A program made the translations under genes and the position numbers. Under the pieces are notes generated by a model. The model was given only the letters and a program-made list of their open reading frames with translations, made no database searches and was not told the DNA's origin. DNA of 64,000 nucleotides from Polytrichum commune (lineage: Eukaryota > Streptophyta > Polytrichopsida > Polytrichales > Polytrichaceae). Below are positions 7,434-52,047 of the stretch, in pieces; the first letter of the stretch is position 1; each line of letters begins with the position of its first letter. The stretch is from the NCBI GenBank assembly GCA_950295325.1, contig OX485803.1, positions 19,778,001-19,842,000 on the forward strand, in the 5' to 3' direction.

Positions 7434-7453
7434 CCACGGGTGAACACCCGTGG
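7434..7453. repeat. A palindrome next to the CACTA insertion
   Basis: Arm CACGGGTG, AA centre, arm CACCCGTG, extended by flanking CATTG/CAATG-like inverted bases. The CACTA end is only 6 bp away. The equivalent site in copy 2 is 50643-50663. Confidence 0.9.
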
Positions 7454-7696
7454 GACAATGCCAGACGTTCACTGTGGTTGGAAATAGTCGGGTATTCTCT
7501 AACACCGCAGTGTCGCAAAGTAGTAGAATCCCAGTGAGATACATTCATGACCATGACATGTTTGCATGAAGAAAATCCACAAAACCAAAATAAGTTTCAA
7601 ATGAAGTTGAAAGGCAACAAAGTTTCAGATCCACTTATTTCAAATACAATGTACCAATAGTGCAAATGTGCACTATAGGCGGCCCCAATAGGGAAT

Positions 7697-8479
7697 CTAC
7701 ATTGACATCTGAGCCTCTGGAACCATACGGGCAGAAATCAGTATTTTATGTCTAGCTAATGATTGCTTATAAATCTGAGAGCTTGGCAGCTCTAGATTGA
7801 AGGGTCCCTGTCCTGATGGATAAAGGTTGCTCCCCACAAAATCTGGCACATACTGTTGAGAACTCAAGAGCCTTTGCAGGTAACTATGCAGAGTATCCAA
7901 GCTTTGGGTTGACATAAATGGGGGAGGGTTAATGTAGCTCCCAGGAGGGTTTGGGATGCATTTGTAAGGGGAGTCATCAACAAGTAATGTAGTTCTATGA
8001 CTGGGTTGCTTCGTATGCGGTATTGGATGCGTCCGGCTCTACTCAAAAAATGCGCACAGATCTTTCATGAAGAAGCTTGAATCAACATTCATAGGACTAG
8101 GAAGAATTTATCCTCTCTCATCCTTCAGAGTGTGACACAATTCTTGCTTAAACACATACTCTGGATGTCTACAACCATTGAAGAAGTGCCGGACAATTGG
8201 CTGAAGATTCTTCATAAGCTTTGACGACTAGATGACAACATGGAAGTTTGCAAGAACAAAACGCAGAAAGCGTCCCAGTCCTCTCCTAGGTATGAGGGCA
8301 CTATATGGGAGAAAGAGTGGAGCCAACTCCCTAGTTATCTGAGGGCTATGTTGTGATTCAAGAGTCTTCCTGGTGTTGACATTGTCGTACTTTGTTGACC
8401 TCACCAGGATCCCGTTCACATCCAGCACTAACCATATCTTCTCTCTCCGATGGACAACAGTGGTTGGAGAGGTGAAGAT
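7697..8479 (-). pseudogene. FCP1-like HAD phosphatase exon of A copy 1
   Basis: After a good acceptor (GTCATCGCCAG) the frame reads IFTSPTTVVHRREKIW then LVLDVNGILV, the HAD motif I of the plant FCP1-like (NLI-interacting-factor) family. Motif II-like FHVVIWSSKLMK and motif III-like TTLLVDDSPYKC follow in copy 2; here the frame breaks near 8230 and 8040 so that the domain is in pieces. The canonical DxD is DxN in both A and B genes: the nucleophile Asp is kept and the second Asp is Asn, as I recall for plant relatives with DLNG motifs. Activity of such proteins is not assured. Confidence 0.75.
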
Positions 8480-8739
8480 CTGGCGATGACAAAATTGAAA
8501 GTCATTGTAAAGGATTTCTATCTAAGGAAACAGTAGATTCTACATGATTTTTATCGAATGAAACGACACGTTGGGTAGACATGAGTATGCAAGATAAAAG
8601 AATGCCTGCACATTTATTGATTAGTTTTGCGAGCTCGGGTAGAATATCGTACTGAAGGTGGTATTCCGGCAGTAGCTGTATGACCTGTAACCACATGCAC
8701 ACACGACTTATGAGATCCACACGCTCAAACCCATATTCT

Positions 8740-8761
8740 CCCACGGGTGAACACCCGTGGG
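8740..8761. repeat. A palindrome, intact, in intron 5 of A copy 1
   Basis: Perfect 10-nt arms (CCCACGGGTG and its complement) around AA. Equivalent to 49336-49357 in copy 2. Confidence 0.95.
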
Positions 8762-8840
8762 CACAATATCAAAAATCCTTTATATAAATATTACTCGAGA
8801 GATAACAAATTGTATGGAAATTAAAAAGTATAAACAGGTG

Positions 8841-8857
8841 GTCCCACGGGTGGGACC
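8841..8857. repeat. Collapsed A palindrome
   Basis: Reads GGTCCCACGGGTGGGACC-like, whereas copy 2 (49233-49254) has the full palindrome with identical outer flanks. The inner bases around the centre are missing, as expected from hairpin-mediated deletion, or else this is a pre-expansion state. Confidence 0.8.
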
Positions 8858-8888
8858 AATTGCATTCAAATAACACTATATATGATAC

Positions 8889-8979
8889 CTTGAGCTTGGC
8901 TTAGGGGGGGATCCCCATCATGTGCAGGGTCGTCATGAGAACTCGGTGGAATGACATTCCGTTCTGCCGCAACCAACAC
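8889..8979 (-). pseudogene. Short proline/aspartate exon 5 of A copy 1
   Basis: Bounded by acceptor TTTGCAACAG and donor AAG then GTATCATA, in phase 0 with exon 4. It encodes VLVAAERDVIPPSSHDD followed by a GDPPLSQAQ-like end. In copy 2 the acceptor AG is mutated to AT at 49107. Confidence 0.6.
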
Positions 8980-9064
8980 CTGTTGCAAAGACACTTTTAG
9001 AAATCTTGACGACTTTGCTTCCAAGATGAACACAATATTGAATTGGGAAGGGAGTATGTATTAC

Positions 9065-10826
9065 CATTTCGGACGATGCCGGTTGACCCTCAGCAAAACG
9101 ATCGACATGAGGGCTTGAGGACTCCGCAACTGCAACATTGACTTCCCTCCTTGGAGACTCTGGCACTCCACTAATGTCAATGATCTCCAACATCGAGTCC
9201 ACAACACTACCGGCTTGAACGGCCGAGGACCCCGCGAATTGACCTCGTTCTTCACGATGTTTGGGAGCTTCGAATGTTGTCCATCTCTTTCTCATTTTTT
9301 TTAATGCAGCGGCATGAAGAATATGTTTCACCTTCACTGCTTCACAAAACGCTGGTGTGGAGAGATAAGCGAACATCTTGTGATAGTCGTACGACTTGTA
9401 CAAATGCGCAAGATTCAATCGCACGTTCTCGGGCACATCTACCAAATATTTGTCCACAAATGGGGCAAAATGCACCTTGTCCTTCCCATCCGATTCCTTG
9501 CCCATGTCAGGTCTCCCAGCAAACACCGGGTGAGGGTCATTAACAAAGTTGAGTTTCACTCTGTTGTACCCGGGCTTCCCATAATCTTCATCTTCGGAAT
9601 CATCTGTCATGTAGTCAGCAAACGTCCCCCGAACCCGATGTGGAACTCGATCTCTCACCTTCACCCTCACGTCTAGTTCTACGCATCTTTCGGGCACATC
9701 GTCATCACTATCCAAGCATATGACTTCGGTTCGAATAACCTCCTCTGCTTCATTGGATGGTGCCATTACAGTAGGCTCTTCTGCAACCACAACATTAGGG
9801 GAATCACGGTTTTGATCGCCCATGGCCTAGCACCTCGAGAACGGCAACGGCAACGTCCTCCACAGGTGAGATGACGTTCAAATCTGTGTTTGTCCCTTCA
9901 ACATGCACAGCTTCAGACATGATTGCATCCCGCGGAACATCCTCCACATCCGCTACTTGGCCAGATTCAACCTTGCGATAAAGACCAGAATGCTCCATTG
10001 CCTCCGAAGACTGCGAGTGATCTCCAACTCTAGGGGGACGTAGAGATGACCTTCCCCTTCGAGGAGCTTTCATTTTCTTCCTTGCAGTCGGTTTTGCTCC
10101 AGACCTTGCAGCAGGATTAGCTAACTGCGGACGCTCATCCTCCTTAGATTCTTCCGTAGGTTGAACATCTAGTTCTTGACTTCGTCTAGATGTATCAAAG
10201 GGTACAAACCCGCGGCCGGGTGTAGATGGGATCCCAAACGAGAAAGATCCCACAGGGTGATGGACATTGTGCTTGGCTTGTGGACGACCAACTTCCTCTA
10301 AGTTGGAAGCATCCTCTTGCCGCTCCTCCTCACCCTCCCCCTCCCCCACGGGTGAACACCCGTGGGGAACCTACTCCGGGGACATGGCCTCCGCAGACGC
10401 CTCCGCCATGGCCGACGCCTTGAAATTGAAGGCCTCCTCCTCCTCCTCTGCCATGGCCTCTGCCAGTGCATCGTCCATGACCACCTCCTCTTCCTCTTCC
10501 TCTTCCTCTTCGTCGGCCTCTTCCTCTTCCTCTGCAGACTCCCCTAGGACAGCAACTAGGTCATCTTCCTCCTCCACGTCTTCCTCCTCCTCCTCTTCCT
10601 CTTCTACCTCCTCTTCATGTGTGTCATTCGCACGCTTTCTTCCAATCTTGCGCTCAATGATGGAATCCACATCGATATGCCCTTCTTCCTCTTCTATATC
10701 CTGGGCAGCGACTTTTCCTTCTTCATTCCACCTTTGTATGCTCCAGTCAACTGCGGAAACCATTTTCGTCTTTGCCACCTCTAGCATCTCTACCGGCACA
10801 ATATTCACCACCTTCATACCCAAGGC
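9065..10826 (-). pseudogene. Acidic exon 4 of A copy 1
   Basis: Starts after TTTTTGCAG with ALGMKVVNIVPVEMLEVAK, followed by a very long Glu-rich run (about 10440-10620), then a Ser/Pro/Lys-rich part and a folded-looking C-terminal block (KLNFVNDPHPVFAGRPDMG, LVDVPENVRLNLAHLYKSYD). Ends at donor ATG then GTAAT. A TAG at about 10371 precedes an in-exon palindrome (10344-10367) and a 1-nt insertion near 9815 shifts the frame. Copy 2 is open through the same stretch. The acidic block suggests a flexible or chromatin/histone-binding linker, which is inference from composition only. Confidence 0.7.
10344..10367. repeat. A palindrome inside coding exon 4, copy 1
   Basis: Arms extended to CCCCACGGGTG around AA. 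In copy 2 (47726-47749) it is read in frame as PHGCSPVG on the coding strand. Confidence 0.93.
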
Positions 10827-11004
10827 CTGCAAAAACCAAGGAATGAGAAAAAAACTTCTCAATCAAATTAGTCTATATCCAAAAGCGAAAAGAAAATCAA
10901 TAAACCAATAGTCCCAACTTGTTGATTGTCAACCAACTAATTGTCAGGAAAGCTATCAAGCAGGTGGCTATCAACCAGGTGGATATAAAGCACATGGATG
11001 TCTA

Positions 11005-11030
11005 GGCCCACGGGTGTTCACCCGTGGGCC
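11005..11030. repeat. A palindrome in intron 3, copy 1
   Basis: Arms extended to GGCCCACGGGTG around TT. The equivalent in copy 2 is 47045-47070. Confidence 0.95.
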
Positions 11031-11133
11031 TCCCAACCTGGTTTATGGTTAGATTATCCAATACACCATCCAAACCAATGATAATACTCGGAAATTCAAG
11101 AACCACTTAGGGGAAAAGATGCTCATTACTTAC

Positions 11134-12426
11134 ATGTGCCACTTTGTGCGCCTTATTGCCTCTAGAAATATTGAGGAAAAAAGACCCCTCAAGACATGAA
11201 GGCTTGATGATATCTATGTAGGTCTGCATCCTCAACTCCCCCTTGAATAAAGACTTGGCCTCCTCATTGGAATACGCCCTTTTCACTGAATAACGTTTAT
11301 ATCGCCCCGGGTCATGGACGTCCAACATCTTCCGGCCTCCACAGAGCCGCACAGCCACCTCCAAGCTTGATTCGCCCCTATTGGGAAAAATGCAGGTTGT
11401 AACCCGAAGAGCATTTGATTCGAAGAAGCAATCGCGAGATGCAATTTTCTCCTCTTTAGTGCCATAGTATAAGGCGTCACAAAATCTGACGTTGCTCGGC
11501 AGGTGCGTCTTCAGTACATTGTGAATGAAATGCCGATCCGGATATTCGGAAATCACAGTCCACAATTGGGGGGAGTTTAAAATGCCTGGGAAATCACGAC
11601 GAAGACCTTACAGAGTGGAATCCATAGACTCCTTCACACGCCCCCAAGTGTCTATTCCCGCCTGGAATCCGGGGAGAAACCTTGTGTCCATGTACGCGTA
11701 CGGGACTGGTGCAAGCACTGTCCCACCACTGAACTTGTAGTTATTGTCAATAGACAACACGACATGCTCTGGTGTAACCTCGGTGTTATGCGTACCTAAT
11801 ATGTTCCTCACTTATTCTTTAAACCGGTCATGAATAGGTATTATTTTCCTTGCGGGGTTCATAGCGCCAAGAAGGTACTCCGCTCCAAGCAAGTCTACAA
11901 GTTGTTCTCGCTGGAATTTACCAAAATTATTCGCATACTTCCATACTCTCCAACAATCACGATCAATGGTCTCTTTCTGATCAACGTGAACAATGTACAA
12001 TGGAATCGGGTTTAGACACTGTGCCATGGCGATATAAATTTCATTCTTCTTCTTTCTATTCACCGCCCATTTGCGCACAGTCTTCAAGGTATGTCGAGGG
12101 TGCTCCTCTCCATCTCTGGTGGTGAGGATTTGATCCGCTGCCATGTCGAGCTCCATCTCTGTCAAGCCCCGAAATTGCTTCAGGTCGTTCTTGACCACCT
12201 TCTTCGACTTAAACCCCTTTGTCTTTTTCATAAGAGCTTCGGTCTTCGGGTCTACATAGTCACCATTCTCGTAATCCTTGAATATCCGCTCTCACTTCCT
12301 CCATATGTCATCGCTCAATACATGCAAGACGTGCTCCATGATCAGGTTGTTCTCCTTCTCCACGCGGAACGTCCATATGACGCACGTAATGAATGTCTGT
12401 ATCAAACACCGGCAATGTATCAATCT
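11134..12426 (-). pseudogene. Middle exon 3 of A copy 1
   Basis: Begins after TTTTTTCATAG and ends at GGCACAT then GTAAGTAAT. Conserved blocks: DDIWRKxERIFKDYENGDYVDP; GLTEMELDMAADQIL; KETIDRDCWRVWKYANNFG; and near the end KSLFKGELRMQTYIDIIKP then SFFLNISRGNKAHK. The last block aligns with DELRMEFYLRILRALTRRG...FNVFGGSKPIYAGM of the B gene and looks faintly like the motif I end of an N6/N4 DNA methylase, with the glycines degraded. Three stops interrupt this copy. Role unknown. Confidence 0.7.
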
Positions 12427-12478
12427 CTATGAAAAAACCTCCATGTATTTCTATCAATCACCAACAACATGATAGTCG

Positions 12479-12500
12479 CCCACGGGTGAACACCCGTGAG
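12479..12500. repeat. A palindrome in intron 2, copy 1
   Basis: One mismatch in the right arm (GTGAG for GTGGG). The equivalent in copy 2 is 45574-45595. Confidence 0.92.
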
Positions 12501-13175
12501 AGTCACACAAATGAGAAATTCAAAAGTCACAGGTTTGAAATATACCTTCCACTTCTTAAAAGCTTCCGTGTTGTTGGACTTCTCGCGTACAGTTCGGTCA
12601 GGTCTTCCTCGCCTAATCCAAGTCTTCCTAACGTGCTGAATGCACTCCGTAAATGATGGAAAGTGCTTCCTGTATTCACTATCCAGGTTCAGAACGCCAG
12701 AAAGGTGGAACAGAGGGTCATCATCACCTTCAGGGGCCCAGACCACATTACAAGGCCATTTCGAGAAAAACCTCTTCACCTCATCTGTGCTGCTGGGGTC
12801 ATTCACATACTCCAGACAGGCTGCTAACGTGTGCTGTCCATTTACCACGTGGAATGATTTGTCTTTCACCTCCTCAAAATTGAACGGTTTAGTTCGCCTA
12901 TCCGAAGGAACGATTGTTAAGAAGTTGGGATGAATCTTCGGAATGAAGGCATAGTTGAATAACCATGTCTTGATTTCCTTCAAATACGCCTCGGATATGG
13001 GTCAGTAATTATACCCTGCATCTCCCCGCTCTATATTGTAAATACTAACATATCCATTCACGTCTTCTCCGAATATCCACACCCTTTGGTACTTGTTCTT
13101 GAACAACTTCATATCCATCAACATGTCTCCAACCGATTTGTCTGGAGGCCCATGCATTGATCGGTTGGGAATCTT

Positions 13176-13504
13176 CTCGGGGGGGTAGTCATTGGTTGGA
13201 GTAGCAATATACGTGCGAACAAATGATAGGGTATTTTAAAAACATGGGGGCAAAAATTTATAATTGGACTTCAGAGTAATATAGGGTATCAAAAATGACA
13301 TTGGACATCTTTAAAGTACTATAGGGTATGGAATAATAGGTAATTTGGAATTATAAGTAATGCAAGCCATTTTTCTATTAACCCAAAGTAGAAATTTGCA
13401 TAATGATAGCATGTGAAAAAAAAAAATTGAAAGTAATACCCCCCTATAAAATAGTGGTTGTTCGCACCTATATCCTTAACTTTTTAACACACTGCCCCCC
13501 CGAG
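13176..13504. mobile_element. hAT-like MITE (329 bp) inserted in A copy 1
   Basis: Ends CTCGGGGGG... and ...CCCCCCGAG, with an 8-bp target duplication GGAATCTT (13168-13175 and 13505-13512). Copy 2 has the uninterrupted sequence with one GGAATCTT-equivalent. No coding capacity. The 8-bp duplication places it with hAT-type elements. A second copy lies inverted at 59423-59778. Confidence 0.92.
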
Positions 13505-14239
13505 GGAATCTTCTCGAGTTCAAAAAATGGACTATCCTCGGATGTTTTCTTCTTGCCTCTCTTGGAGACAACTGTGGGAGTCCAAATTCGACGGAAAGAC
13601 GGAAATACAGAAATACGGATTCAATTTCCGTATTTTACCTTGCTTATCTGAGGATAATAGGGTTTATTAGGACAAAATTAATGGTACTAGGAAATAGAGT
13701 AGTCTAACCCCGCCTTGTGCGGTAAAACGACTCTAAATAAGTACTATGACCGGTCCGTCAAATAGGATGGGCGGACCATGTAATCATGGTCCAAACCCTT
13801 GGTCCGGACCAAGTGACGGACGCGCCAAGATTACCCAACGGCCCGGAAGTGGCGGTTACAACGGGCCTTATGGCGGTTGGGGGAAAAGAGAGCCGTTGGT
13901 GAAAATGTTAGTAAAACCGTTGGTGGGAACCGCCGGAAAACGGTTGGTAACCGTTTTCCGTTAAACCGAACGGTAACAGGGGAAGGAAGAGGGAGGAAGG
14001 ATATTTAAGGGTCCCTTCCTTCTCCCTCACACTCTTTTCTGGAAAAAGGCAACCTGTTGAGAGAACGAGTGGTGAGGTGTTCCTTCTTTCGAGCCGCCAG
14101 CAGTTGGATTGCTGGGACTCAACACTTTTCAGTCACCGGCAGTGGGCTTGCCGGGACTTTGTGGCACTTAGACGGAAGAGAAGGACTCCGGAAGAGAGAG
14201 AGAGAGGTTGCAAGCCAAAAAAGGTGAGAGGAGAGGAAA

Positions 14240-16312
14240 ATGCCGGAAGCACGGGAAGAGGATCAGCGGGAACCCATCCCGATTCCGCTGAAAGCCCTCA
14301 CCCCTGCAATTCCGAGGGAGGATAGAGAGCTGCAGGAGCTCGCGGAGGATCTCAGGGTCATGGGTTGTGCAGGATTGCTCTCCAAACCCTGGAATCTCAG
14401 AGCGGAAGATACCCTCCGCGAGTTTAAATTCGAGAGGGGAAATCAGTGGCTAGGCACAAAGAGGAGGGATCCGGAACATTGGACTCCGGATACGTGGAAC
14501 AGGGTCTACGGGTTTCCCAGGGGAATCACGGAGGGGTGGGCCGGCCGCCGCGACGGCCTGTTCGCCGGGAAATTCAGAGGGGACGCGGATCCAAAGGACG
14601 GGTTTCACCCAGGGAACTGCCGGAATATTAGGGAGCGGAGAGTGCTAGAGTTTCTCCTGCCCATTCTCAATCCGGACAAGCCGAAGCGGATTAGCCTCAC
14701 CATGGCTAACACTCTGTTTGGTGCAATGTCCGGAGTCCGGCCGGTGAATTGGGGCCTGATCATCCAGGAGATAGTCGGACGGGCCCTCCCCCATATTGGC
14801 CAGAAACCCTCCTTCCTCTCCCCCTTCATTTTGCACCTCTACCAGCATTTCGACTGCATCACGGCAGAGGAGGAGGACCTGCTCACAATAGCGGCGGATG
14901 AGGTCACCTACAAGCTGCTCCCGGAAGCCGGAGACGTCGAGACGGAGACCTCCAGCGACCCTATTCTTCCGGAAGCACCTCCCTCGTCACCCGGAAGCCC
15001 GCCACCAACCGTCTCGAGGCCACTCTCTCCCCCTCCCCCGCACCAACATCCGGAAGCCGGACCCAGCCGGGAGACCCCATGGCGAAATGTGGACCTATCC
15101 GCTTGGGACTTCCCGGAGAATCCATTCAAGCGGTTCCAGGAGGGGATGGAGGACCTCAAGACCCAGTACTACCGACTGGAGCACATCGTCAAGGGGGCGA
15201 ACCATGCTCTGGACGACTGCGGACCCGGAAACATTCTCCGGGAATTGGCAAAGAGGGCGGACCGGAAGGAGCTGGAGCAGGCCAAGATGGAGAACGCCCA
15301 CCTCACCGCACATGTAGCGGCTATGACCCAGGAGCTGAGTCAGAAGAGTGAGGAGATCCGGAAGTATCATGCGGAGCAGGCAGTGCTCTTCAGCCGGATC
15401 CGGGAGCTGGTGGGTCATCCGGCGGAGATCGTGAACAAGGCACATCTCTACGACCGGATGATGGAGTCAGGAGAACCGGCTTCCGCCAGGCAGACCCTCC
15501 CCATCCTCGTGAAGTATTCACGGACGATGAAGGATCTCCTGGCGGAAATCCAGAGGGTGGTCCCGCCAAGCGGAACACCGCGGAGAGTGCTCTATCCGGG
15601 TCCGCCAGGGTCACCAACCGGAACCCTCTACGAGGTGGTTGGTGAAGTAGCCCTGGTTCAGAATCCGCCGGCCTCTGCAGGACCCAGCCAGCAAGGAGGC
15701 GGCTCTCGGCCTGGTCATTCCGGAGGGGCTCCGGAAAGGGTCCATTCTCCCCAGGTGAGGCGGAAGAGCACCGGGTCGGTCCGATCCGGAAGGGGCCAGT
15801 CCCCTGTTCCGCGGAACTCGGATAGGTCCCGGACTCCGGATAGGGCTCGGACGCCGATCCGGCACCAGACTTCCGATCGGGAGGCCACTCCGAGTAGGGG
15901 CAAGGCTCCTATGACCCACGCCTCGCCATCGTCTCCACGGGACTGCCAAGTGGTGAGTCCATTTCCTCCGCCACACTCGAGAGCGGCCTCCAACAGGGAT
16001 CCGCGGACGGCTTCACTCTCGGGTGGACGGAATCCGGAGCAGGGCACCGGAAGCGATCCTTCTCCAGTCCGAAGCATCCGGATGGGGACAGCTTCCGGAA
16101 CCCCAGGGACAGTCTCCGGGACACCAGGGACCGCTACCCCACGGACCGAGAGGGCAGCGGATTCAGAGGACGAGGTTGCTCCGTCTCCGAACATGAGGAG
16201 GATGCTCACGCGGCTACAGAAGGCGTCGCCGGCCGGGGGCTCATCCGCCGTCAGCGGATTAGGGAGTCACTCAAAGGAGGGATCGGCTCCGAAGAAGCAC
16301 CGGTCTTCTTAA
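14240..16312 (+). CDS. 690-aa ORF1/gag-like protein of the 4.1-kb element
   Basis: Uninterrupted frame of 690 codons from ATG at 14240. The N-terminal third looks folded: LREFKFERGNQWLG, TWNRVYGFPRGITEGWAG, RRVLEFLLPILNPDKPKRI, LTMANTLFGAMSGVRPVNW, FLSPFILHLYQHFDCI. The layout recalls the plant 'putative transposon protein' ORF1 domains of LTR elements, but I cannot name the family. A proline-rich linker follows (about residues 235-270), then a helical, coiled-coil-like part (KRADRKELEQAKMENAHLTA, SQKSEEIRKYHAEQ), and a long Ser/Arg/Pro-rich, disordered C-terminus with many SGRGQSP- and RTPDRARTP-like phrases that suggest RNA binding. No protease, RT or integrase is present. The open frame implies recent arrival or selection. 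Confidence 0.65.
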   Translation: MPEAREEDQREPIPIPLKALTPAIPREDRELQELAEDLRVMGCAGLLSKPWNLRAEDTLREFKFERGNQWLGTKRRDPEHWTPDTWNRVYGFPRGITEGWAGRRDGLFAGKFRGDADPKDGFHPGNCRNIRERRVLEFLLPILNPDKPKRISLTMANTLFGAMSGVRPVNWGLIIQEIVGRALPHIGQKPSFLSPFILHLYQHFDCITAEEEDLLTIAADEVTYKLLPEAGDVETETSSDPILPEAPPSSPGSPPPTVSRPLSPPPPHQHPEAGPSRETPWRNVDLSAWDFPENPFKRFQEGMEDLKTQYYRLEHIVKGANHALDDCGPGNILRELAKRADRKELEQAKMENAHLTAHVAAMTQELSQKSEEIRKYHAEQAVLFSRIRELVGHPAEIVNKAHLYDRMMESGEPASARQTLPILVKYSRTMKDLLAEIQRVVPPSGTPRRVLYPGPPGSPTGTLYEVVGEVALVQNPPASAGPSQQGGGSRPGHSGGAPERVHSPQVRRKSTGSVRSGRGQSPVPRNSDRSRTPDRARTPIRHQTSDREATPSRGKAPMTHASPSSPRDCQVVSPFPPPHSRAASNRDPRTASLSGGRNPEQGTGSDPSPVRSIRMGTASGTPGTVSGTPGTATPRTERAADSEDEVAPSPNMRRMLTRLQKASPAGGSSAVSGLGSHSKEGSAPKKHRSS

Positions 16313-16729
16313 TTAGGGGAGTGGCTAGATCGATTAGGCAGAAGGGAGGTAGGCAGGTAGGACTTAGGAGTTTTTGAAGACGATTAATAAAATTTTCCTT
16401 TGGTAGTGTCAGCGGAAAACCCGGATCTGGATCCGAGAAATCCGGGAGACCGGGGGTAGTTAGGGTTTTCTTGAGCGGCGGCCGCTTGGGCCGCCGCCCT
16501 CAGTTTAGGGATTTTTGAACCTCTACTTAAGGCTGAATAAGGAGCTTGGGGGGGGTTCCTTCTCCATTGTTGTATTGTGGTTACTCCTACCCTGAATAAA
16601 TGTCTTTGCTTCTCACCCCTTGACTTCTCTTGATTGATGTGTGTGTGAATGACCCGGAGATCGTTAGTGGAAGAGAAAGGGAGGGCATGAAGGATAGGAG
16701 TTCCGGATAGGACATGAGAGAGGAGACCC

Positions 16730-17290
16730 GGATCAGATCCGGTTACCGCCTTGTAGATCCTCTCTGAGTGTAGTGGGAGGGAAACTAATCCGGTAGGTTG
16801 GGTAACGTCTAGGTGGGATAGCCGCTGGGAAGATTGGGTGAGATCCGGAAGGAATCTGGACTTATGCCAATCTGATCTTCTGAAGAGGTCCCACCGTCCT
16901 TAGACGGACCTGCCCGGATTAGTGGTACGGATCGCCTATTTATCTCAGATTGAGTAGAATCCAAGGTAAAGGTAGCCGGACAGATCCGTCGGACGGAGAA
17001 GGAGAGGTCCGGATCAGTAAGGATTCCGATAGGAGGCCACCTCCGGAGTGCAGTAGGAAGAGATCCTCATTGTTCCGAATGCCTGGGTAACGTCCATGTG
17101 AGATAGCCGTCGTTAGGACTGGGCAAGATCCGGAAGGTGCCGGACTTACGCCATCCGACCTTCTGAAGAGGTCTCACAGTCTTTGGACGGGGTAATCCGG
17201 AAAGTGGTACGGGTCACCTACTCATCCCGTCGAGTTAGATCTCCGGTTGGAATCCGGACTCCTCTGGCCACTTTGGTCCCAAGAAACAAA
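16730..17290. repeat. Two diverged tandem repeats (about 280 bp period)
   Basis: Shared blocks in the same order: GGGTAACGTC, GATAGCCG, AGATCCGGAAGG, CTTCTGAAGAGGTC, and GTGGTACGG. Copy one about 16730-16965, copy two about 17008-17245. Confidence 0.75.
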
Positions 17291-18613
17291 CCAGATCTCT
17301 CTGCGTGACCTGCCAGGACGGACCTGATCAATCCGGATTGGTTGTGAGGGAGTTTCCGGATTCTAACCTTATCAAGGACGTCTTCACCGGAAGAAACCAA
17401 TTATTCTAGAGGGTAGACGTAAAGGGGTGGGTAAGTATTATAAAGAGGACCTAGAAATAACATCCGGAGAGGTACCCTCCGAAAAAAGGCTAAGAATGTC
17501 ACCAAAGACCAAATATCCGGAAATTAGGATTTCCGGAAATTTGGCTAAGGAAGAAGAAATAAGCAGGTACGGAGAGTTTTAGACCTCCTACACTTCACAG
17601 AATCCCTGGACGATACTAAGGTCACCCGGAAATATCCGGATTTGGCACAAAAACCCGCCAATCCGGAACTTTTGGTGTTTGTGGGTTCCCACAACAACAT
17701 CCTGGCCGGGAGTGTCTTCGACAATCAGTGGTTGTCCTTCATCGGGTCTCGTCTTCTTCCTAGACGAGGTGGCACGGACATCAGCAGGATCCTTCCTCTT
17801 GCCATCGCGGATTTCCTTCTTCTTCAAAGATGCTTCCAACCTTGCCGCCTTTGCCTCCTCAACTATAACCTTCACTCGTGCTAGAGCAGACTTGTAGTCA
17901 TGCTCGATCATTACTGATCTCTCCTCCACGGTTTTCGTGTGCACATTGGTCTCGCAATATTTTATACAATAGGTGAGGAATTCACCGTTCAATAAGCAGA
18001 TGTTCTTTCCCTCATTGTTGAGCTCTTCATTCACATCCGCATATGAGAAAGTCTCCAAGAGTGCTGCAACCTTGAAGTCCTTCTTCCGTTCAGACGACTT
18101 GCACATTATCAATACCCGGCTCCCATCCGCTTGAATATCCAGTACATGTTTTGCTTTCATGTATTTTCTCCATGTGGAATTAAGCCCAGTCTTCGTGTAC
18201 AGCGAAAGTACCGTTGTCTCTCGGAAACCACTGTACTGCATGAACCATTGCAAATCTGGGCCCAAAACTTCGACATTGTAATTCACTCGTCTGCCCACGC
18301 CTCCAGATACTGCAAAAGACAATGCACGTGTTAGTACTCAGCATAGCCCAATATTATCACGGATTCTATAACTCATATAATATTGGCATGCACATAGGTA
18401 TTGTGGTTATACCTTTACGAGTTGTTTGCTTAGTTCTTGCCATCTCAATTCAAATGAGAGAACACTTCGACACCTCTATGTACCTAAATGAAACACCAAC
18501 TATCTATCACATGTTTATGTCTAAAACCTTCAAAAGACATACCAAATTTGTCTATATAAAAAAATCCAAAAGACATTTATCAAACAAAAAATCCCAACCA
18601 GATGAGTGCAAAG

Positions 18614-18872
18614 GCCCACGGGTGAACACCCATGGGCACTCCTAACCAGGTGGGTGTAAGGCCCCACGGGTGTTCACCCGTGAGCCTCCCCACGAGGTTA
18701 GTGCCAGGGCTCACGGGTGTTCACTCGTGGGCCTCTCCACCTAGTGAGTGCAAAGGCCCACGGGTGAACACCCGTGGGCACTCCCAACCAGGTGGTTGTA
18801 ATGGCCCACGGGTGTTCACCCGTGGGCCTGTCCACCTGGTGACTGCAAAGGCCCACGGGTGAACACCCGTGA
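18614..18872. repeat. Array of six A palindromes, 46-47 bp period
   Basis: Palindromes begin near 18614, 18661, 18707, 18754, 18801 and 18848. Spacers of about 22 nt are themselves alternating near-complements containing CACCTGGTG or CCAACCAGGTGG, so the true unit is about 94 bp with two palindromes. Centres alternate AA/TT. Several members have one arm mutation (e.g. CCCATGGG, ACTCGTGGG). Located in intron 1 of the A gene. Confidence 0.93.
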
Positions 18873-18959
18873 GAAATGCTGACTGAGAAAAAAATGTTTC
18901 TCCGGTGAGTACCACTTTCAGCCTCATATTAATGAGACTTCATACATTAATATAACGAC

Positions 18960-19500
18960 CCTGAATAAAAGACTAGGTCAAAAGCAACAATTGTTTCTAA
19001 AGAAAAAAAGAAAAATGTTTTTTTAACCCAAATTAGAATAATTTAAGAAATTTAATAATTTTAGTGTATTTTCTTTAGAAAACTTTAAATTTAATGAATT
19101 TTTACTGAAAATGTTTAAATAATTAAAATAAAATTCTTGATTTTCCCATACATAGAAGAAAAGAGTGTTATTAAAATATTTTTCAGAAATCTTATCATTT
19201 TCCATAAATCTTAATGGGTAATTTTCTATAAAAAATGGACAACTTTTGTATAGTTTGTAATTGTTTTGAAAAGTCTGATTTTTTTTGCTTTGTTTTTTTA
19301 TCGAAGATTTAAAATAATGGCTTTTTGATTTTGAGTAAGTTTTCTGGTTTGCGCTTTGCGAAGCGGGGCACAGGCATAAGAAATCTAGGGCACAGCTGCC
19401 TGCGGCCCTTATCTGATTAGGGCACCACTCTCTACTTATTAGAATACAAGGCGCAGCGAAATATTTTTCTTTTTTTCGGCCAAAATTATATTCCATGGTT
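18960..19500 (-). other. AT-rich insert of organelle-like composition in intron 1
   Basis: Very AT-rich block between the two palindrome arrays. On the minus strand a frame runs through KYFNNTLFFYVWENQEFYF and NFLNYSNLG with heavy Asn/Lys/Phe use. A GC cluster GCTTCGCAAAGC sits near 19355, a type of palindrome I associate with organelle genomes. It may be a fragment of mitochondrial or plastid DNA; no organelle gene was recognised. Confidence 0.35.
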
Positions 19501-19523
19501 GTAAGAACGCAGATGAGGGGAGA

Positions 19524-40215: not shown

Positions 40216-40240
40216 CTGCAAGAGAGTCATACCACAATTA

Positions 40241-40484
40241 GTTTCGGTCGGGCGACTCAAACTATTAAAATTTTAAAATGCTTATGTCTAATAAATGTCA
40301 ATAATATATGGGGTTTGGAATTAGCTTGATCGTTTAATATGAATTTTGAATTAGTTGGTATCTTGGGTTTGGGTCGCTCGACCCAAACCAGGTCTTAGGT
40401 TTTGGTCGCTCGACCCAAACCATGTTTTCGGTTTGGGTCGCTCGACCCAAACCAGGTGTTGTGTTTGGGTCGCTCGACCCAAAC
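40241..40484. repeat. Cluster of five B palindromes, 32 bp period for four of them
   Basis: Members at 40241-40262 (decayed), 40367-40388, 40399-40420, 40431-40452 and 40463-40484. All four intact ones share the CT centre, spaced 32 bp with about 10-nt spacers. They lie in the intron just before the B start codon, as the A arrays lie in A intron 1. Confidence 0.95.
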
Positions 40485-40686
40485 CAGTTTCCGTACATTC
40501 AAACAACAAAAATTAGTTGTATATTATATGTATTTTCAAGTAATTATTGTTCTTTCAATTTTTGATCGCTAATGATACGGTGCTTATTATAAATGTTTAT
40601 TAAATAATTCTTATATTATAATAAGATAGTATGCAATGCTTATGATAATCATAAGAAAAATATATTTATGCACGAAGGAAATTACC

Positions 40687-44629: not shown

Positions 44630-44800
44630 GTTTGGGTTGACCGACCCAAACCTATCCCCACAGGGGGCAGGTACTTGGGTTGACTTAGAGCCCACCTCCC
44701 CTACATAGTTTGGGTCGGTCGACCCAAACCCTTTCCCACATATTGCAGGTATTAGGGTGGACTCGGAGTCCATCCCCCCCTACAAGGTTTGGGTCGGTCG
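44630..44800. repeat. B palindromes upstream of A copy 2, the last one cut
   Basis: 44630-44651 (one mismatch), 44708-44729 (GT centre), and a half member 44787-44800 that stops after GTTTGGGTCGGTCG and continues directly into family A exon sequence. Confidence 0.93.
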
Positions 44801-45528
44801 GACAACCACTGATTGTCCAAGACACTGACGGCCAGGATGTTGTCTCCAAGAGAGGCAAGAAGAAAACACCCGAGGATAGTCCATTTCTTGAACTCGAGAA
44901 GATTCCCAAGCGATCAATGCATGGGCCTCCAGACAAATCGGTTGGAGACAGGTTGATGGATATGGAGTTGTTCAAGAACAAGTACCAAAGGGTGTGGATA
45001 TTCGGTGAAGGCGTGAATGGCTATGTCAATATTGACAATATAGAGCGGGGAGATGCAGGGTATAATTGCCGACCCATATCCGAGGCGCATTTAAAGGAGA
45101 TCAAGACATGGTTATTCAACTATGCCTTCATTCCGAAGATTCATCCCAACTTCTTGACAATCGTTCCTTCGGATAGGCGAACTAAACCATTCAATTTTGA
45201 GGAGGTGAAGGACAAATCGTTCCACGTGGTAAATGGACAGCACACGTTAGCAGCCTGTCTCGAGTATGTGAATGACCCTAGCAGCACAGATGAGGTGAAG
45301 AGGTTTTTCTCGAAATGGCCTTGTAATGTGGTCTGGGCCCCTGAAGGTGATGACGACCCTCTGTTCCACCTCTCTGGTGTTCTGAACCTGGATAGTGAGT
45401 ACAGAAAGCACTTTCCGTCATTTACGGAGTGCATTCAGCACGCTAGGAAGACCTGGATTAGGCGAGGAAGACCTGACCGAACTGTACGCGAGAAGGCCAG
45501 CAACACGGAAGCTTTTAAGAAGTGGAAG
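44801..45528 (+). CDS. ParB/Srx-like exon of A copy 2
   Basis: Begins QPLIVQDTDGQDVV, then RSMHGPPDKSVGD, VWIFGEGVNGYVNIDNIERG, KEIKTWLFNYAFIPKIHPNF, and FHVVNGQHTLAACLEYVND; ends EKASNTEAFKKWK at donor GGAAG then GTATTT. No stop in this exon, unlike copy 1. Confidence 0.72.
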
Positions 45529-45573
45529 GTATTTTTCAAACTTGTGACTTTTGAATTTCTCATTTCTGTGACT

Positions 45574-45595
45574 CCCACGGGTGTTCACCCGTGGG
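45574..45595. repeat. A palindrome in intron 2, copy 2
   Basis: Perfect arms, TT centre; flanked by GACT on both sides. Confidence 0.95.
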
Positions 45596-45648
45596 CGACT
45601 ATCATGTTGTTGGTGATTGCTAGAAATACATGGAGGTTTTTTTCATAG

Positions 45649-46941
45649 AGATTGATACATTGCCGGTGTTTGATACATGCATTTATTACGTGCGTCATGT
45701 GGACGTTCCGCGTGGAGAAGGAGACCAACCTGATCATGGAGCACGTCTTGCCTGTATTGAGCGATGACATATGGAGGAAGTGGGAGCGGATATTCAAGGA
45801 TTACGAGAGTGGTGACTATGTAGACCCGAAGACCGGAGCTCTTATGAAAGAGACAAAGGGGTTTAAGTCGAAAAAGGTGGTCAAGAACGACCTGAAACAA
45901 TTTCGGGGCTTGACAGAGATGGAGCTCGACATGGCAGCGCATCAAATCCTCACCACCAGAGATGGAGAGGAGCACCCTCGACATACCTTGAAGACTGTGC
46001 GCGATTGGGCGATGAACAGGAAAAAGAAGAATGAAACTTATATCGCGATGGCACAGTGTCTAGACCCGACTCCATTGTACATTGTCCACATCGATCAGAA
46101 AGAGACCATTGATCGTGATTGTTGGAGAGTATGGAAGTATGCGAATAAGTTTGGTAAATTCCAGCGATAACGACTTGTAGACTTGCTTGGAGCGGAATAC
46201 CTTCTTGGCGCTATGAACCCCACAAGGAAGAGAGTACCTATTCCGGACCGGTTTAAAGAAGGAGTGAGGAACATTTTAGGTACACATAACACCGAGGTTA
46301 CACCCGAGCATGTCGTGTTGTCTATTGACAACAACTACAAGATCAGTAGTGGGACAGTGCTTGCACCAGTCCTGCACGCGTACATGGACACAAGGTTTCT
46401 CCCCGGAGTCCAGGCGGGAAAAGACACTGGGAGGCGTGTGAAGGAGTGTATGAATTCCACTCTGCAAGGTCTTCGTCGTGATTTCCCAGGCATTTTAAAC
46501 TCCCCCCAATTGTGGACTGTGATTTCCGAATATCCGGATCGGCATTTCATTCACAATGTACTGAAGACGCACCTGCCGAGCAACGTCAGATTTTGTGACG
46601 CCTTATACTATGGCACTAAAGAGGAGAAAATTGCATCTCGCGATTGCTTCTTCGAATCAAATGCTCTTCGGGTTACAACCTGCATTTTTCCCAATAGGGG
46701 CGAATCAAGCTTGGAGGTGGCTGTGCGGCTCTGTGGAGGCCGGAAGATGTTGGACGTCCATGACCCGGGGCGATATAAACGTTATTCAGTGAAAAGGGCG
46801 TATTCCAATGAGGAGGCCAAGTCTTTATTCAAGGGGGAGTTGAGGATGCAGACCTACATAGATATCATCAAGCCTTCATGTCTTGAGGGGTCTTTTTTCC
46901 TCAATATTTCTAGAGGCAATAAGGCGCACAAAGTGGCACAT
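45649..46941 (+). pseudogene. Middle exon 3 of A copy 2
   Basis: From TTTTCATAG to CACAT then GTAAGTAAT. Blocks DDIWRKWERIFKDYESGDYV, GLTEMELDMAAHQIL, RDCWRVWKYANKFG; a single TAA at 46168; then GAEYLLGAMNPTRKRVPI, LWTVISEYPDRHFIHNV, VAVRLCGGRKMLDVHDPG, and GELRMQTYIDIIKP. Same order as gene B exon 3. Confidence 0.72.
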
Positions 46942-47044
46942 GTAAGTAATGAGCATCTTTTCCCCTAAGTGGTTCTTGAATTTCCGAGTATTATCATTGG
47001 TTTGGATGGTGTATTGGATAATCTAACCATAAACCAGGTTGGGA

Positions 47045-47070
47045 GGCCCACGGGTGAACACCCGTGGGCC
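47045..47070. repeat. A palindrome in intron 3, copy 2
   Basis: Arms extended to GGCCCACGGGTG, AA centre. Confidence 0.95.
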
Positions 47071-47248
47071 TAGACATCCATGTGCTTTATATCCACCTGG
47101 TTGATAGCCACCTGCTTGATAGCTTTCCTGACAATTAGTTGGTTGACAATCAACAAGTTGGGACTATTGGTTTATTGATTTTCTTTTCGCTTTTGGATAT
47201 AGACTAATTTGATTGAGAAGTTTTTTTCTCATTCCTTGGTTTTTGCAG

Positions 47249-49021
47249 GCCTTGGGTATGAAGGTGGTGAATATTGTGCCGGCAGAGATGCTAGAGGTGG
47301 CGAAGACGAAGATGATTGCCGCAGTTGACTGGAGCATACAAAGGTGGAATGAGGAAGGAAAATTCGCTGCCCAGAATTTGGAAGAGGAAGAAGGTCGTAT
47401 CGATGTGGATTCCATCATTGAGCGCGAGATTGGAAGAAAACGTGCGAATGACATAAATGAAGAGGACGTAGAAGAGGAGGAGGAGGAAGAGGTGGAGGAG
47501 GAAGATGACCCAGTTGTTGTCCTAGGGGAGTCTGCGGAGGAAGAGGAAGTGGCCGACGAAGAGGAAGAGGAAGAGGAAGAGGAAGAAGAGGAAGAGGTGG
47601 TCATGGACGACGCACTGGCGGAGGCCATGGCTGAGGTCATGGCAGAGGTGGAGGAGGAGGCCTTCAATTACAAGGCGTCAGCCATGGCGGAGGCCTCTTT
47701 GGAGGCCATGTCCCCGGAGCAGGTTCCCCACGGGTGTTCACCCGTGGGGGAGGGGGAGGGGGAGGGTGAGGAGGAGCGGCAAGAGGATGCTTCCAACTTA
47801 GAGGAAGTTGGTCGTCCACAAGCCGAGCACAGTGTCCATCACCCTGTGGGATCTTTCTCGTCTGGGATCCCATCACCCGGCCGCGGGTTTGCACAATTTG
47901 ACACATCTAGACGAAGTCAAGAACAACTAGATGTTCAACCTATGGAAGAATATGAGGAGGATGAGCGTCCGCAGTCAGCTAATCCTGCTGCAAGGTCTGC
48001 ATCGAAACCGACTGCAAGAAAGAAAATGAAAGCTCCTCGAAAGGGAAGGTCATCTCTACGTCCTGCTAGAGTTGGAGATCACTCGCGGTCTTCGGAGGCA
48101 ACGGAGCATTCTGGTCTTTATCGCGAGGTTGAATCTGGCCAAGCGGATGTTCCGCGGGATGCAATCATGTCTGAAGCTGTGCATGTTGAAGGGACAAACA
48201 CAGATTTGAACGTCAGCTCACCTGTTGAGGACGTTGCCGCTGCCGTTCTCGAGGTGCTAGGACATGGGCGATCAAATCGTGATTCACCTGGTGTTGTGGT
48301 TGCAGAAGAGCCTACTGTAGCGGCACCATCCAATGAAGCAGAGGAGGTTATTCGAACCGAAGTCATATGCTTGGATAGTGATGACGATGTGCCCGAAAGA
48401 TGCGTAGAACTAGACGTGAGGGTGAAGGTGAGAGATCGAGTTCCACATCGGGTTCGGGGGACGTTTGCTGACTACATGACGGATGATTCCGAGGATGAGG
48501 ATTATGGGAAGCCTGGGTACAACAGAGTGAAACTCAACTTTGTTGATGACCCTCAACCGGTGTTTGTTGGGAGACCTGACATGGGCAAGGAATCGGATGG
48601 GAAGGACAAGGTGCATTTTGCCCCATTTGTGGACAAATACTTGGTAGATGTGCCCGAGAACGTGCGATTGAATCTTGCGCATTTGTACAAGTCGTACGAC
48701 TATCACAAGATGTTCGCTTATCTCTCCACACCAGCGTTTTGTGAAGCAGTGAAGGTGAAACATATTCTTCATGCCGCTGCATTAAAGAAAATGAGAAAGA
48801 GATGGACAGCGTTCGAAGCTCCCAAACATCGTGATGAACGAGGTCAATTCGCGGGGTCCTCGGCCGCTCAAGCCGGCAGTGTTGTGGACTCTACGTTGGA
48901 GATCATTGACATTACTGGAGTGCCAGAGTCTCCAAGGAGGGAAGTCGATGTTGCAGTTGCGGAGTCCTCAAGCCCTCATGTCGAACGTGTTGCTGAGGGT
49001 CAACCGGCATCGTCCGAAATG
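47249..49021 (+). CDS. Acidic exon 4 of A copy 2
   Basis: Open from GGTTTTTGCAG to donor GAAATG then GTAATAC. Starts ALGMKVVNIVPAEMLEVAKT; Glu-dominated block about 47460-47690; in-frame palindrome (PHGCSPVG) at 47726-47749; Ser/Lys-rich middle; C-terminal block RVPHRVRGTFADYMTDDSED, FVGRPDMGKESDGKDKVHF, VDVPENVRLNLAHLYKSYDY, LKKMRKRWTAFEAPKH. About 590 residues with no stop. Longest intact piece of family A. Confidence 0.7.
47726..47749. repeat. A palindrome read in frame in exon 4, copy 2
   Basis: CCCCACGGGTG arm, TT centre, full complement; translated PHGCSPVG. Confidence 0.95.
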
Positions 49022-49232
49022 GTAATACATACTCCCTTTCCAATGCTATATTGTGTTTGGCGGTGGAAGCAAACTCGTCAAGATTTCTAAAAGTGTCTTT
49101 GCAACATGTGTTGGTTGCGGCAGAACGGGATGTCATTCCACCGAGTTCTCATGACGACCCTGCACATGGTGGGGATCCCCCCCTAAGCCAAGCTCAAGGT
49201 ATCATATATAGTGTTATTTGAATGCAATTGGT

Positions 49233-49357
49233 CCCACGGGTGAACACCTGTGGGACCACCTGTTTATACTTTTCAATTTCCATACAAATTGTTATCTCTC
49301 GAGTAATATTTATATAAGGGACTTTTGATATTGTGCCCACGGGTGTTCACCCGTGGG
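49233..49357. repeat. Two A palindromes in intron 5, copy 2
   Basis: 49233-49254 (one C to T in the right arm) and 49336-49357 (perfect). Confidence 0.94.
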
Positions 49358-49617
49358 AGAATATGGGTTTGAGCGTGTGGATCTCATAAGTCATGTGTGC
49401 ATGTGGTCACAGGTCATACAGCCACTGCCGGAATACCACCTTCGGTACGATATTTTCCTCGATCTCGCAAAACTAATCCATAAATGTGGAGGCATTCTTT
49501 TATCTTGCATACTCATGTGTACCCAACGTGTTGTTTCATTCGATAAAAATCATGTAGAATATACTTTTTCCTTAGATAGAAATTCTTTACAATGACTTTC
49601 AATTTTGTCATCGCCAG

Positions 49618-50400
49618 ATCCTCACCTCTCCAACCACTGTTGTCCATCGGAGAGAGAAGATATGGTTAGTGCTGGATGTGAACGGGATCCTGGTGAGGTC
49701 GACAAAGTGCGACAATGTCAACACCAGGAAGACTCTTGAATCACAACATAGCCCTCAGATAACTGGGGAGTTGGCTCCACTCTTTCTCCCATATAGTGCC
49801 CTCATACCTAGGAGAGGACTGGGACGCTTTCTGCGTTTTGTTCTCTCAAACTTCCATGTTGTCATCTGGTCGTCGAAGCTTATGAAGAATCTTCAGCCAA
49901 TTGTCCGGCACTTCTTCAATGGTTGTAGACATCCAGAGTATGTGTTTGGGCAAGAATTGTGTCACACTCTGAAGGATGAGAGAGGACAAGTTCTTCCTAG
50001 TCCTATGAATGTTGATTCAAGCTTCTTCATGAAAGATCTGTGCGCATTTTTTGAGTGGAGCCGGACGCATCCAGTGCCGCATACGAAGCAACCCAGTCAT
50101 AGGACTACATTACTTGTTGATGACTCCCCTTACAAATGCATCCCAAACCCTCCTGGGAGCTACATTAACCCTGTACCATTTATGTCAAACCAAAGCTTGG
50201 ATACTCTGCATAGTTACCTGCAAAGGCTCTTGAGTTCTCAACAGTATGTGCCAGATTTTGTGGGGAGCAACCCTTATCCATCAGGACAGGGACCCTTCAA
50301 TCTAGAGCTGCCAAGTTCTCTGATTTATAAGCAATCATTAGTTAGACATAAAATACTGACTTCTGCCCGTATGGTTCCAGAGGCTCAGATGTTAATGTAG
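49618..50400 (+). CDS. FCP1-like HAD phosphatase exon of A copy 2
   Basis: Open from GTCATCGCCAG to TAG at 50400, about 260 residues: ILTSPTTVVHRREKIW, motif I LVLDVNGILV, GRFLRFVLSNFHVVIWSSKL, then LLVDDSPYKCIPNPPGSYI and LQRLLSSQQYVPDFVGSNP. Motif I has Asn at the second acidic position. It is intact here while copy 1 is broken. Confidence 0.8.
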   Translation: MLTSPTTVVHRREKIWLVLDVNGILVRSTKCDNVNTRKTLESQHSPQITGELAPLFLPYSALIPRRGLGRFLRFVLSNFHVVIWSSKLMKNLQPIVRHFFNGCRHPEYVFGQELCHTLKDERGQVLPSPMNVDSSFFMKDLCAFFEWSRTHPVPHTKQPSHRTTLLVDDSPYKCIPNPPGSYINPVPFMSNQSLDTLHSYLQRLLSSQQYVPDFVGSNPYPSGQGPFNLELPSSLIYKQSLVRHKILTSARMVPEAQMLM

Positions 50401-51082
50401 ATTCCCTATTGGGGCCGCCTATAGTGCACATTTGCACTATCGGTACATTGTATTTGAAATGAGTGGATCTGAAACTTTGTTGCCTTTCAACTTCATTTGA
50501 AACTTGTTTTGGTTTTGTGGATTTTCTTCATGCAAACATGTCATGGTCATGAATGTATCTCACTGGGAGTCTACTACTTTGCAACACTGCGGTGTTAGAG
50601 AATACCCGACTATTTCCGACCACAGTGAATGTCTGGCATTGTCCCACGGGTGTTCACCCGTGGCAATGTGGTAGTTGATTCAATGAATGTATCAGGCCAC
50701 TTGGATAATGTTAGTTGTGTTTTTGGGAATTATGGTTGTCATAGCGAATTTTAATATGTAGGACTTAGTCGGCTATAATTCATATGTTTTGAACATGTTC
50801 ATCTTTACTAAAGGGCAACGGACGGGCTCCTCTTGCACATAATGTCCTTCTTCCATGGACTCTTATGTTATTGTATCCTAACATCATTCCCCATTCCAAA
50901 CGCAACCTAAGAACTATATTGCCAGTCTACCATGTCGACAACGTCCTCCGGATGCTAACGCCGACTTCGCCGAAGTGACATCTCCATGCCCTAAGGTAAT
51001 TCATTTTCCACATGAATCCCAATTTTTTTAGTTGTGTTTCATCCCAGGGATTCTAATATCAATTTGTCGTTTGTTGTGGTAG
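50401..51082. other. Intron or 3' region of A copy 2
   Basis: Homologous to copy 1 down to 50663, then unique. Holds an A palindrome at 50643-50663. No other gene seen. Confidence 0.6.
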
Positions 51083-51469
51083 ACACATATGCTCCAAACA
51101 CACTATGTTGCGCTCGCGGTTGCGGTGGCTGTTCCGGTCGCGGTTGAGGAGGCTGTTCCGGTCGATGTTGCGGGTCCGGTCACACGCGCTCGGGTGAAGA
51201 GACACCTTTCTCTCCAAACCACTCACCCCAATGAGCCCACGGGCTCGGGAAATAGTTCTGGATGTTGGAGGTGTAGTTCACCCAATACCACCTCATCCAT
51301 GTCTGATTACGTGGCTGCAAGGGTGAAACAACTTCGAGAAGCTACAGTTTTGATGGAGGAGAAAAAACGGCTTGAAGAAGTCAAGCGCAAGCAATGTACT
51401 ATAGCTCAAAGACAACCTCATGACAAGATGTTGAAAATGATTAAGGATTCATACTCCTCTTGTAGATAG
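51083..51469 (+). pseudogene. A tail exon (low-complexity then coiled coil)
   Basis: After acceptor TTGTTGTGGTAG: a Val/Ala/Pro-rich start (VALAVAVAVPVAVEEAVPV), RARVKRHLSLQTT, and a charged helix (VKQLREATVLMEEKKRLEEV) with terminal KDSYSSCR. Position and charge match the B tail exon. Confidence 0.45.
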
Positions 51470-51494
51470 CCGGACCTTTATAGTGATAGATTTT

Positions 51495-52047
51495 CCACGG
51501 GTGTTCACCCGTGGATACAACAATTCATATACTTTGTTCACATTTTTTGTGCCCACTGTGGCATCTATGATTCAATCAAATGATTTTTTGACCCTCATTT
51601 GTGTAGTCGGATATGACATGTAGACCTTCCTTCATGTGTTATGGATCTTGCATCGTGTGTTGCATGGCGTTGATTGGTCACGGGCGTTCACTCGTGGTTA
51701 GATGTATTTGTATTCTCTGAGTAGTATTAAGTGCCCATGATAGCTTTTATGATTAGACCCATTATATTTGCATACAGTTGTTGATATGCGCATGGTTGTT
51801 CCTTAGTGGTATCGACTTATGTTGTATTATGGATATACTAGGCTCATCTGTTGCGGGGTGTTGGTTGGTCACGAGTGAACACCCGTGGTGACAACTGGGC
51901 TAAGTTTTTATGTGGGCTAGAATAAGCATTATTTTAGCTTATATATATACACCAATGTGCATGAAATAGTGCCCTAGTCTATGTTGATGACCTTCCTCTT
52001 GTTCTAAACCTTGTCAATGATGGCAATTCACGGATATTTACTCGTGA
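51495..52047. repeat. Four A palindromes of increasing decay
   Basis: 51495-51514 (intact), 51678-51697, 51870-51888 and 52029-52047 (progressively mutated). They follow A copy 2 down to the gag junction. Confidence 0.8.

Follow-up and report, generated by a model that had tools for sequence, protein, structure and literature searches.

Two paralogous genes in a 64-kb stretch of Polytrichum commune DNA each carry their own 22-nucleotide palindrome in corresponding places

We analyzed a 64,000-nucleotide (nt) window of the Polytrichum commune genome (assembly GCA_950295325.1, contig OX485803.1, positions 19,778,001 to 19,842,000), in which two diverged genes of one family, A (copies A1 and A2) and B, each carry a palindrome of their own, repeated at corresponding places in introns and in an acidic exon. 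As the original prediction had described, both palindromes, here called words, are 22 nt long and consist of 10-nt arms around a 2-nt center. With up to 3 mismatches allowed, the window contains word A (CCCACGGGTG NN CACCCGTGGG) 26 times, where shuffles lead one to expect 0.00 copies, and word B (GTTTGGGTCG NN CGACCCAAAC) 13 times (0.01 expected). All 26 copies of word A have AA or TT as their center, and eight different dinucleotides occupy the center of word B among its 13 copies. Word A is spread over A1 (5 copies), an array 5′ of the A1 ParB-like exon (10), A2 (7), and positions 61098 to 61811 (4), and word B lies within or just 5′ of gene B (11 copies, 35703 to 40484) and at 44630 and 44708 (2 copies). 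A scan of the window for perfect inverted repeats with arms of at least 10 nt and a spacer of 0 to 4 nt returned words A and B, three AT-rich repeats, and one repeat at 13934 to 13960. Outside the arrays, the flanks of the words are unlike from place to place, and the repeated unit is therefore taken to be the palindrome itself. Because the arms are kept, the center is free in B, each gene has one word, and other lineages have a changed word, a dimeric DNA site is the best-supported reading of these palindromes.

Exons were defined by stop-to-stop reading, with borders as we read them. A1 (7428 to 19787, minus strand), recognized by its identity to A2, by tblastn of 98 relatives (see below), and by reading, is damaged; it comprises first exons, the 5′ array, a ParB-like exon split by insertions, the middle, acidic, and FCP1-like exons, and an end palindrome. 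A2 (44797 to 51515, plus strand), assigned by reading, identity to A1, tblastn, and a match to Pfam NIF (E = 5 × 10−11), has a 5′-truncated ParB-like exon, a middle exon with one stop, and acidic, FCP1-like, and tail exons. Gene B (33600 to 40513, minus strand; reading, NIF match with E = 3.8 × 10−16, and ParB fold) has ParB-like (ATG near 40213), middle, acidic/proline-rich, FCP1-like, and tail exons. Since A1 and A2 are duplicates, 94.8% identical over 5.8 kb (7428 to 13179 on the A1 side), they count as one case, and the window offers two independent cases, A and B, rather than three. The exon-by-exon alignment of A and B that had been proposed was recovered: the alignment of the ParB-like exons spans 270 columns at 21% identity (hhalign probability, 96.6; E = 5 × 10−10), the middle exons are 22 to 25% identical, and the FCP1-like exons are 31% identical. 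By their predicted protein sequences, A and B are ancient paralogues, that is, anciently split subfamilies.

In both genes, words were located in the intron after the ParB-like exon, in the introns before the acidic and the FCP1-like exons, and in the acidic exon itself, and the ParB-like, middle, and FCP1-like exons of both genes contain none. The word scan placed the A1 copies at 7433, 8740, 10345 (acidic exon), 11007, and 12479 (7433 to 12500 overall); the A2 copies at 45574, 47047, 47727 (in frame), 49233, 49336, 50643, and 51494 (to 51515); and the B copies at 35703, 36026, 36095, 37327, 37363, and 38865. A further, 5′ group is present in A1 and B. In B it consists of five copies (40241 to 40484), and in A1 it is an array of 10 A words in the intron that precedes the ParB-like exon (18615 to 19689; groups at 18615 to 18873 and 19526 to 19689, with ∼47-nt spacing). 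The word in the acidic exon of A reads PHGCSPVG in frame, and those of B read FGSSNPN and FGSADPN. The predicted equivalence of places therefore stood for both genes as the exons read, with two qualifications: the array of A is seen in A1 only, because A2 is without its 5′ part, and the open reading frame (ORF) with the acidic-exon words of B is split from the acidic ORF by a TGA.

We compared these positions with placement nulls (200,000 trials) in which copies fell only between the ParB-like and FCP1-like exons, at our exon borders. Under a uniform null, both genes filled exactly the same four places in 0 trials. This exact match occurred in 0.25% of trials when only the introns and the acidic exon were open and in 4.3% when, in addition, the weight of the acidic exon was lowered fourfold; whichever places were filled, the two genes had identical sets in 3.6, 15.8, and 17.5% of trials under the three schemes, respectively. 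How far chance insertion falls short thus varies with the null chosen; the shared places of the A and B words are suggestive, not overwhelming. The tolerated-site figures (4.3 and 17.5%) suit an explanation in which the words are small self-perpetuating repeats, their arms matched by hairpin-templated correction and gene conversion, tolerated by introns and a disordered exon, and recognized by no protein. The tandem arrays with their ∼47-nt steps fit this explanation as well, although we regard it on the whole as rather improbable.

Three protein searches yielded 40, 41, and 17 relatives (98 in all), with only the 7987 candidates sharing most search words scored in the search that gave 17. These relatives are proteins, each usually one exon, and several may share one gene, so that 98 proteins do not amount to 98 genes. 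Because many of the proteins extend past their exon into the following intron, the palindromes become visible as peptides. A reverse-translation scan for any palindrome, compared with the mean of 5 shuffles, gave 62 versus 50.2 matches for A, 97 versus 53.8 for B, and 85 versus 50.4 for the acidic exon, a chance level at which a single match is not evidence; the peptides used here correspond only to the recurring window words and small variants of them, chosen by eye. Word A peptides were found in 11 of the 98 proteins and peptides of a changed word, A′ (HGR.PV, PTG.R[PL]W), in 10, with no protein holding both; 9 of these 21 proteins show at least two copies and so could have been mixed. B-type peptides, changed forms included, were found in 22 of the 98. 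Mixing of A-type and B-type words within single genes, which the original prediction had named as its refutation, was seen in 0 of the 98 proteins. Many of the words in relatives stand directly after the ParB-like exon. Searches for the relatives' DNA in viral and genome contigs, each made with between two and six short peptide patterns, confirmed none; viral contigs contained no exact copies of the words, and plasmids, searched with a short query, gave matches at chance level.

Trees of the relatives suggest that word and gene lineage are linked. In the acidic-exon tree, for which the palindrome stretch was left out and P0086 was labeled A from its intron, one 100/100 split has 8 rows with A′ on one side and, on the other, 7 rows with A together with 3 wordless ones. 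In the ParB-exon tree, 6 A rows lie across a 99/95 split from a single A′ row, and the other 28 rows are wordless. Of the 29 relatives in the B tree, 9 are wordless, 14 have word B, and 6 have a changed one; four proteins that form a 100/100 clade carry VSGDRPK (3 proteins) or ISVDRPK (1 protein), fitting GTTTCGGGCG or GTTTCGGTCG. The changed words (A′ and the B variants) are read from peptides, mostly of one arm, and a matching change in the other arm mostly leaves the protein sequence unaltered. For A′, P0093 (PTGVRPW) shows such a change, and P0037 shows it imperfectly; the both-arm A′ peptide (PRA.ARG) and both-arm changed-B peptides had 0 matches among the 98 relatives. Judging from these peptides, the words appear to drift together with the gene lineage, cleanly for A versus A′ and more loosely in B. 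The prediction of a completely replaced word accordingly applies to A versus B, and within a family one or two letters differ per arm. Likewise, one private word per clade describes A versus A′ but does not strictly describe B, and joint change of word and gene is supported by the A/A′ split and the B clade of 4 but not by all neighbors in the B tree (see below).

The ParB-like reading of the first shared exon was upheld for B by structure prediction: the model of the gene B exon has the ParB/Noc/KorB N-domain fold, with the ParB/Srx N-terminal domain (ParB/sulfiredoxin-type fold), and thereby identifies the predicted B product as a ParB-fold protein. On sequence grounds, the putative A protein is a homologue of it. 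A search of solved structures by sequence returned nothing below E = 0.89. The middle exon was suspected by eye to be a DNA methyltransferase; searches gave no support. The FCP1-like reading was confirmed, with Pfam NIF scores of 43.0 bits in A and 59.6 bits in B (cutoff, 21.8 bits). The catalytic motif of FCP1/NIF phosphatases is DxD; the FCP1-like exons (49576 to 50397, plus strand, in A; 34467 to 35309, minus strand, in B) read DVNG and DLNG, respectively, a DxN in which the second Asp is Asn, and the catalytic DxD is absent from both. A1 also has a first exon beginning MARTKQTTRK (18413 to 18443, minus strand), joined to VSGGVGRRVNY at 18309 by predicted splicing (GT donor, phase 1). The N-terminal tail of histone H3 is ARTKQTARK, which this exon matches at 8 of 9 residues, and 20 block shuffles of the window reached at most 6 of 9. 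The start of P0011, MARTKQTARK, matches at 9 of 9 and is the only one among the 98 relatives with a match of at least 6. At least some A copies thus seem to have a histone H3 tail mimic as a predicted first exon. An alternative first exon, MVPPKNP (19766 to 19787, minus strand, phase 1), was read just 5′ of the array.

The reading that we favor, tentatively, is that a ParB-fold protein of this family binds the palindrome of its own genes, perhaps to counter silencing in the manner of VANC or VirB. The 10-2-10 palindrome would serve as the loading site of a dimer of the family protein. Recurring through the 5′ region, the introns, and a disordered exon that tolerates them, these sites would allow the protein to locate the copies of its own gene and coat them. 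The protein and its site would change jointly, giving different words in different lineages, and the likeliest use would be to keep the family copies expressed. Binding, coating, and anti-silencing by the family protein are inferred. A more elaborate version, a self-recognition code of the ParB-parS type built by a transposon-like eukaryotic family, in which a ParB-fold protein with an H3 mimic and an FCP1-like domain is loaded at its private palindrome, shields the copies from silencing, and coevolves with the word in each lineage, appears doubtful to us.

VANDALs are Mutator-like elements, and VANC21 of the Arabidopsis element VANDAL21 is, by analogy, the closest working parallel. According to excerpts of the reports, the motif that VANC21 recognizes is repeated in introns and other noncoding DNA of its own family (PMC5735166), VANC6 targets carry other motifs (PMC5735166, PMC10398659), and VANDAL subgroups differ in motif type, with motif and protein suggested by the authors to have coevolved (PMC5735166). 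The A and B words are likewise repeated in the noncoding DNA of their own family and differ by subfamily (A and B in DNA, A′ and changed B words in peptides). In contrast, the VANC21 motif is a 9-mer in single-orientation arrays, and the term "palindrome" does not appear in the excerpted main text (PMC5735166), whereas the motif here is a 22-nt palindrome that also occurs in an exon and accompanies a ParB fold (B) and an FCP1-like domain. Among bacterial systems, again from excerpts, ParB proteins bind palindromic sites and have the cytidine triphosphate (CTP) motif GERR (PMC12207404), and VirB, a ParB relative, acts as an anti-silencer by loading at virS and then sliding (PMC10770331). ParB-parS, Noc, KorB, and VirB have the ParB-type N-domain fold in common with the gene B product, and the site of ParB is palindromic; however, parS is 16 bp rather than the 22 bp found here, and the present genes are without GERR, are eukaryotic with introns, and have an FCP1-like partner domain. 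Rickettsia palindromic elements are palindromic repeats tolerated in frame within proteins; compared with them, the words described here are shorter, are clustered on one gene family in the window, and are lineage specific. The gene family is described nowhere in the open-licence literature searched (titles and abstract openings, among the matches listed).

If true, self-recognition by the family protein would add a second case, unrelated to the first, of selfish DNA recognizing itself by a coevolving word and would place a bacterial chromosome-partition fold at work in a eukaryote. Close relatives have words that are single letters apart, so natural pairs could serve to map the specificity of protein-DNA recognition, and the H3-tail exon would provide a link to chromatin that is open to testing. 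Even without protein binding, a lineage-varying palindrome in constant places would make a clean case for studies of palindrome upkeep.

Several observations weigh against recognition of the words by a ParB-fold protein. Foldseek E-values were weak (best, 1.4 × 10−3; none ≤0.001), the model of gene A is poor in the ParB part, and the scanned proteins gave no Pfam ParB match even with an E-value limit of 1. Aligned by eye, the GERR motif of ParB corresponds to GQHS in B (IDGQHS) and GQHT in A (VNGQHT), and the GERR(xR) of the ParB CTPase clamp is absent from both. By exon reading, none of the three window copies looks intact: the A1 ParB-like exon is split by a long terminal repeat (LTR)-like insertion (13573 to 17693; TGTGGGA...TCCCACA, GTTGT flanks) and a small repeat, A2 has its 5′ truncation and a stop in the middle exon, and stops lie between adjoining ORFs of gene B. 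Neighbors in the B tree differ in word (P0045/P0052, P0068/P0069, and P0060/P0061), and two of the six B proteins with at least two readable copies (P0050 and P0068) each have a copy in which just one arm is changed; such differing sister rows and half-changed copies are in keeping with self-perpetuating repeats. Finally, the four A words at 61098 to 61811 adjoin no recognized family exon, and tblastn of the 98 relatives found no ParB-like, middle, or acidic exon beside them at 61.1 to 61.8 kb. These four copies also lend something to the view that two dispersed genome repeats are present here by chance and that their link to the genes is coincidental. We consider that very unlikely, given that the 13 B words are located either within gene B or immediately 5′ of A2 and that A-type and B-type words recur in 21 and 22 of the 98 proteins, respectively, many of them right after the ParB-like exon.

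The sequence immediately beyond the words and their imperfect copies bear on two of the explanations. Past word A, 21 of 44 flank pairs at distances of 1 to 4 are complementary (0.24 expected per pair; 11 copies, with array and A1 duplicates left out), as self-perpetuating hairpin repeats would have it, but past word B the count is 15 of 52, near the 0.26 expected (13 copies). Self-perpetuation alone, moreover, accounts neither for the clustering of the window words on one gene family nor for the ParB fold. It is also conceivable, though in our view unlikely, that the words are RNA hairpins in the transcript, with a role in splicing, double-stranded RNA, or small RNA, and are kept by base pairing. 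Folding placed a single hairpin at the minimum in five of six pieces, with the sixth pairing two neighboring copies (z from −2.8 to −5.5), and the imperfect pairs of word A on the gene strand comprise 9 G-U and 4 A-C (24 copies). However, this 9-to-4 lean is small and includes array duplicates, word B has 12 other mismatches beside 7 G-U and 4 A-C (16 copies), and hairpins would not require the same letters throughout all introns of one gene. Searches of Rfam at gathering scores gave no matches.

In the favored reading, A and B are subfamilies of a multicopy eukaryotic gene family that is mobile or nested in mobile DNA. A Ty3-like LTR element of ∼30 kb (25092 to 55337, minus strand) is bounded by LTRs at 25092 to 26559 and 53854 to 55337 (98.5% identical) and flanked by GTACC at 25087 to 25091 and 55338 to 55342. 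A2 and B lie between its gag (52115 to 52924) and pol (30112 to 33123), both on the minus strand, so the A2-B block most likely entered after the LTR element. Clean transposon ends for the block were sought and rejected (a 13-nt inverted match at 33122/51997, but no target duplication), and Pfam scans of the family ORFs found no transposase. A phage origin was likewise set aside, since PHROGs matches were weak only (best E = 0.0051, P0080, unknown function). Pfam retroelement domains in the window comprise reverse transcriptase, RNase H, integrase, and gag.

Some junctions coincide with words. Directly 5′ of the truncated A2, the B words at 44630 and 44708 are followed by a half palindrome (44787 to 44800) that ends at the A2 junction (∼44797 to 44800), so that the start of A2 coincides with half of a B word. 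The similarity of A1 and A2 stops 5 nt past a palindrome (7433 and 50643), and breakage at palindromes is possible at both of these boundaries. In A1, the counterpart of the A2 copy at 49233 (8839 to 8858) has lost the palindrome center (TGGTCCCACGGGTGGGACCA), as if deleted through a hairpin. Decayed A words are present on the 3′ side of A2 (51679 and 51870), as are, at the 3′ end of B, three tandem ∼100-nt units with decayed B-like palindromes at up to 5 mismatches (33146 to 33430).

Beyond the A words near 61 kb, a stretch at 61833 to 62015 (minus strand) resembles residues 33 to 88 of P0005 (62% over 61 columns), mostly ahead of the family exon of P0005. DUF4218 and DUF4216 go with plant CACTA elements; at 3139 to 4641, DUF4218 scored above its cutoff and DUF4216 just under (29.5 versus 30.6 bits). 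We read these domains, together with the retroelement domains of the window, as plant-like. A dispersed repeat of up to ∼330 nt is present in inverted and direct copies at 13179 to 13501, 23324 to 23817, 57389 to 57643, and 59435 to 59775.

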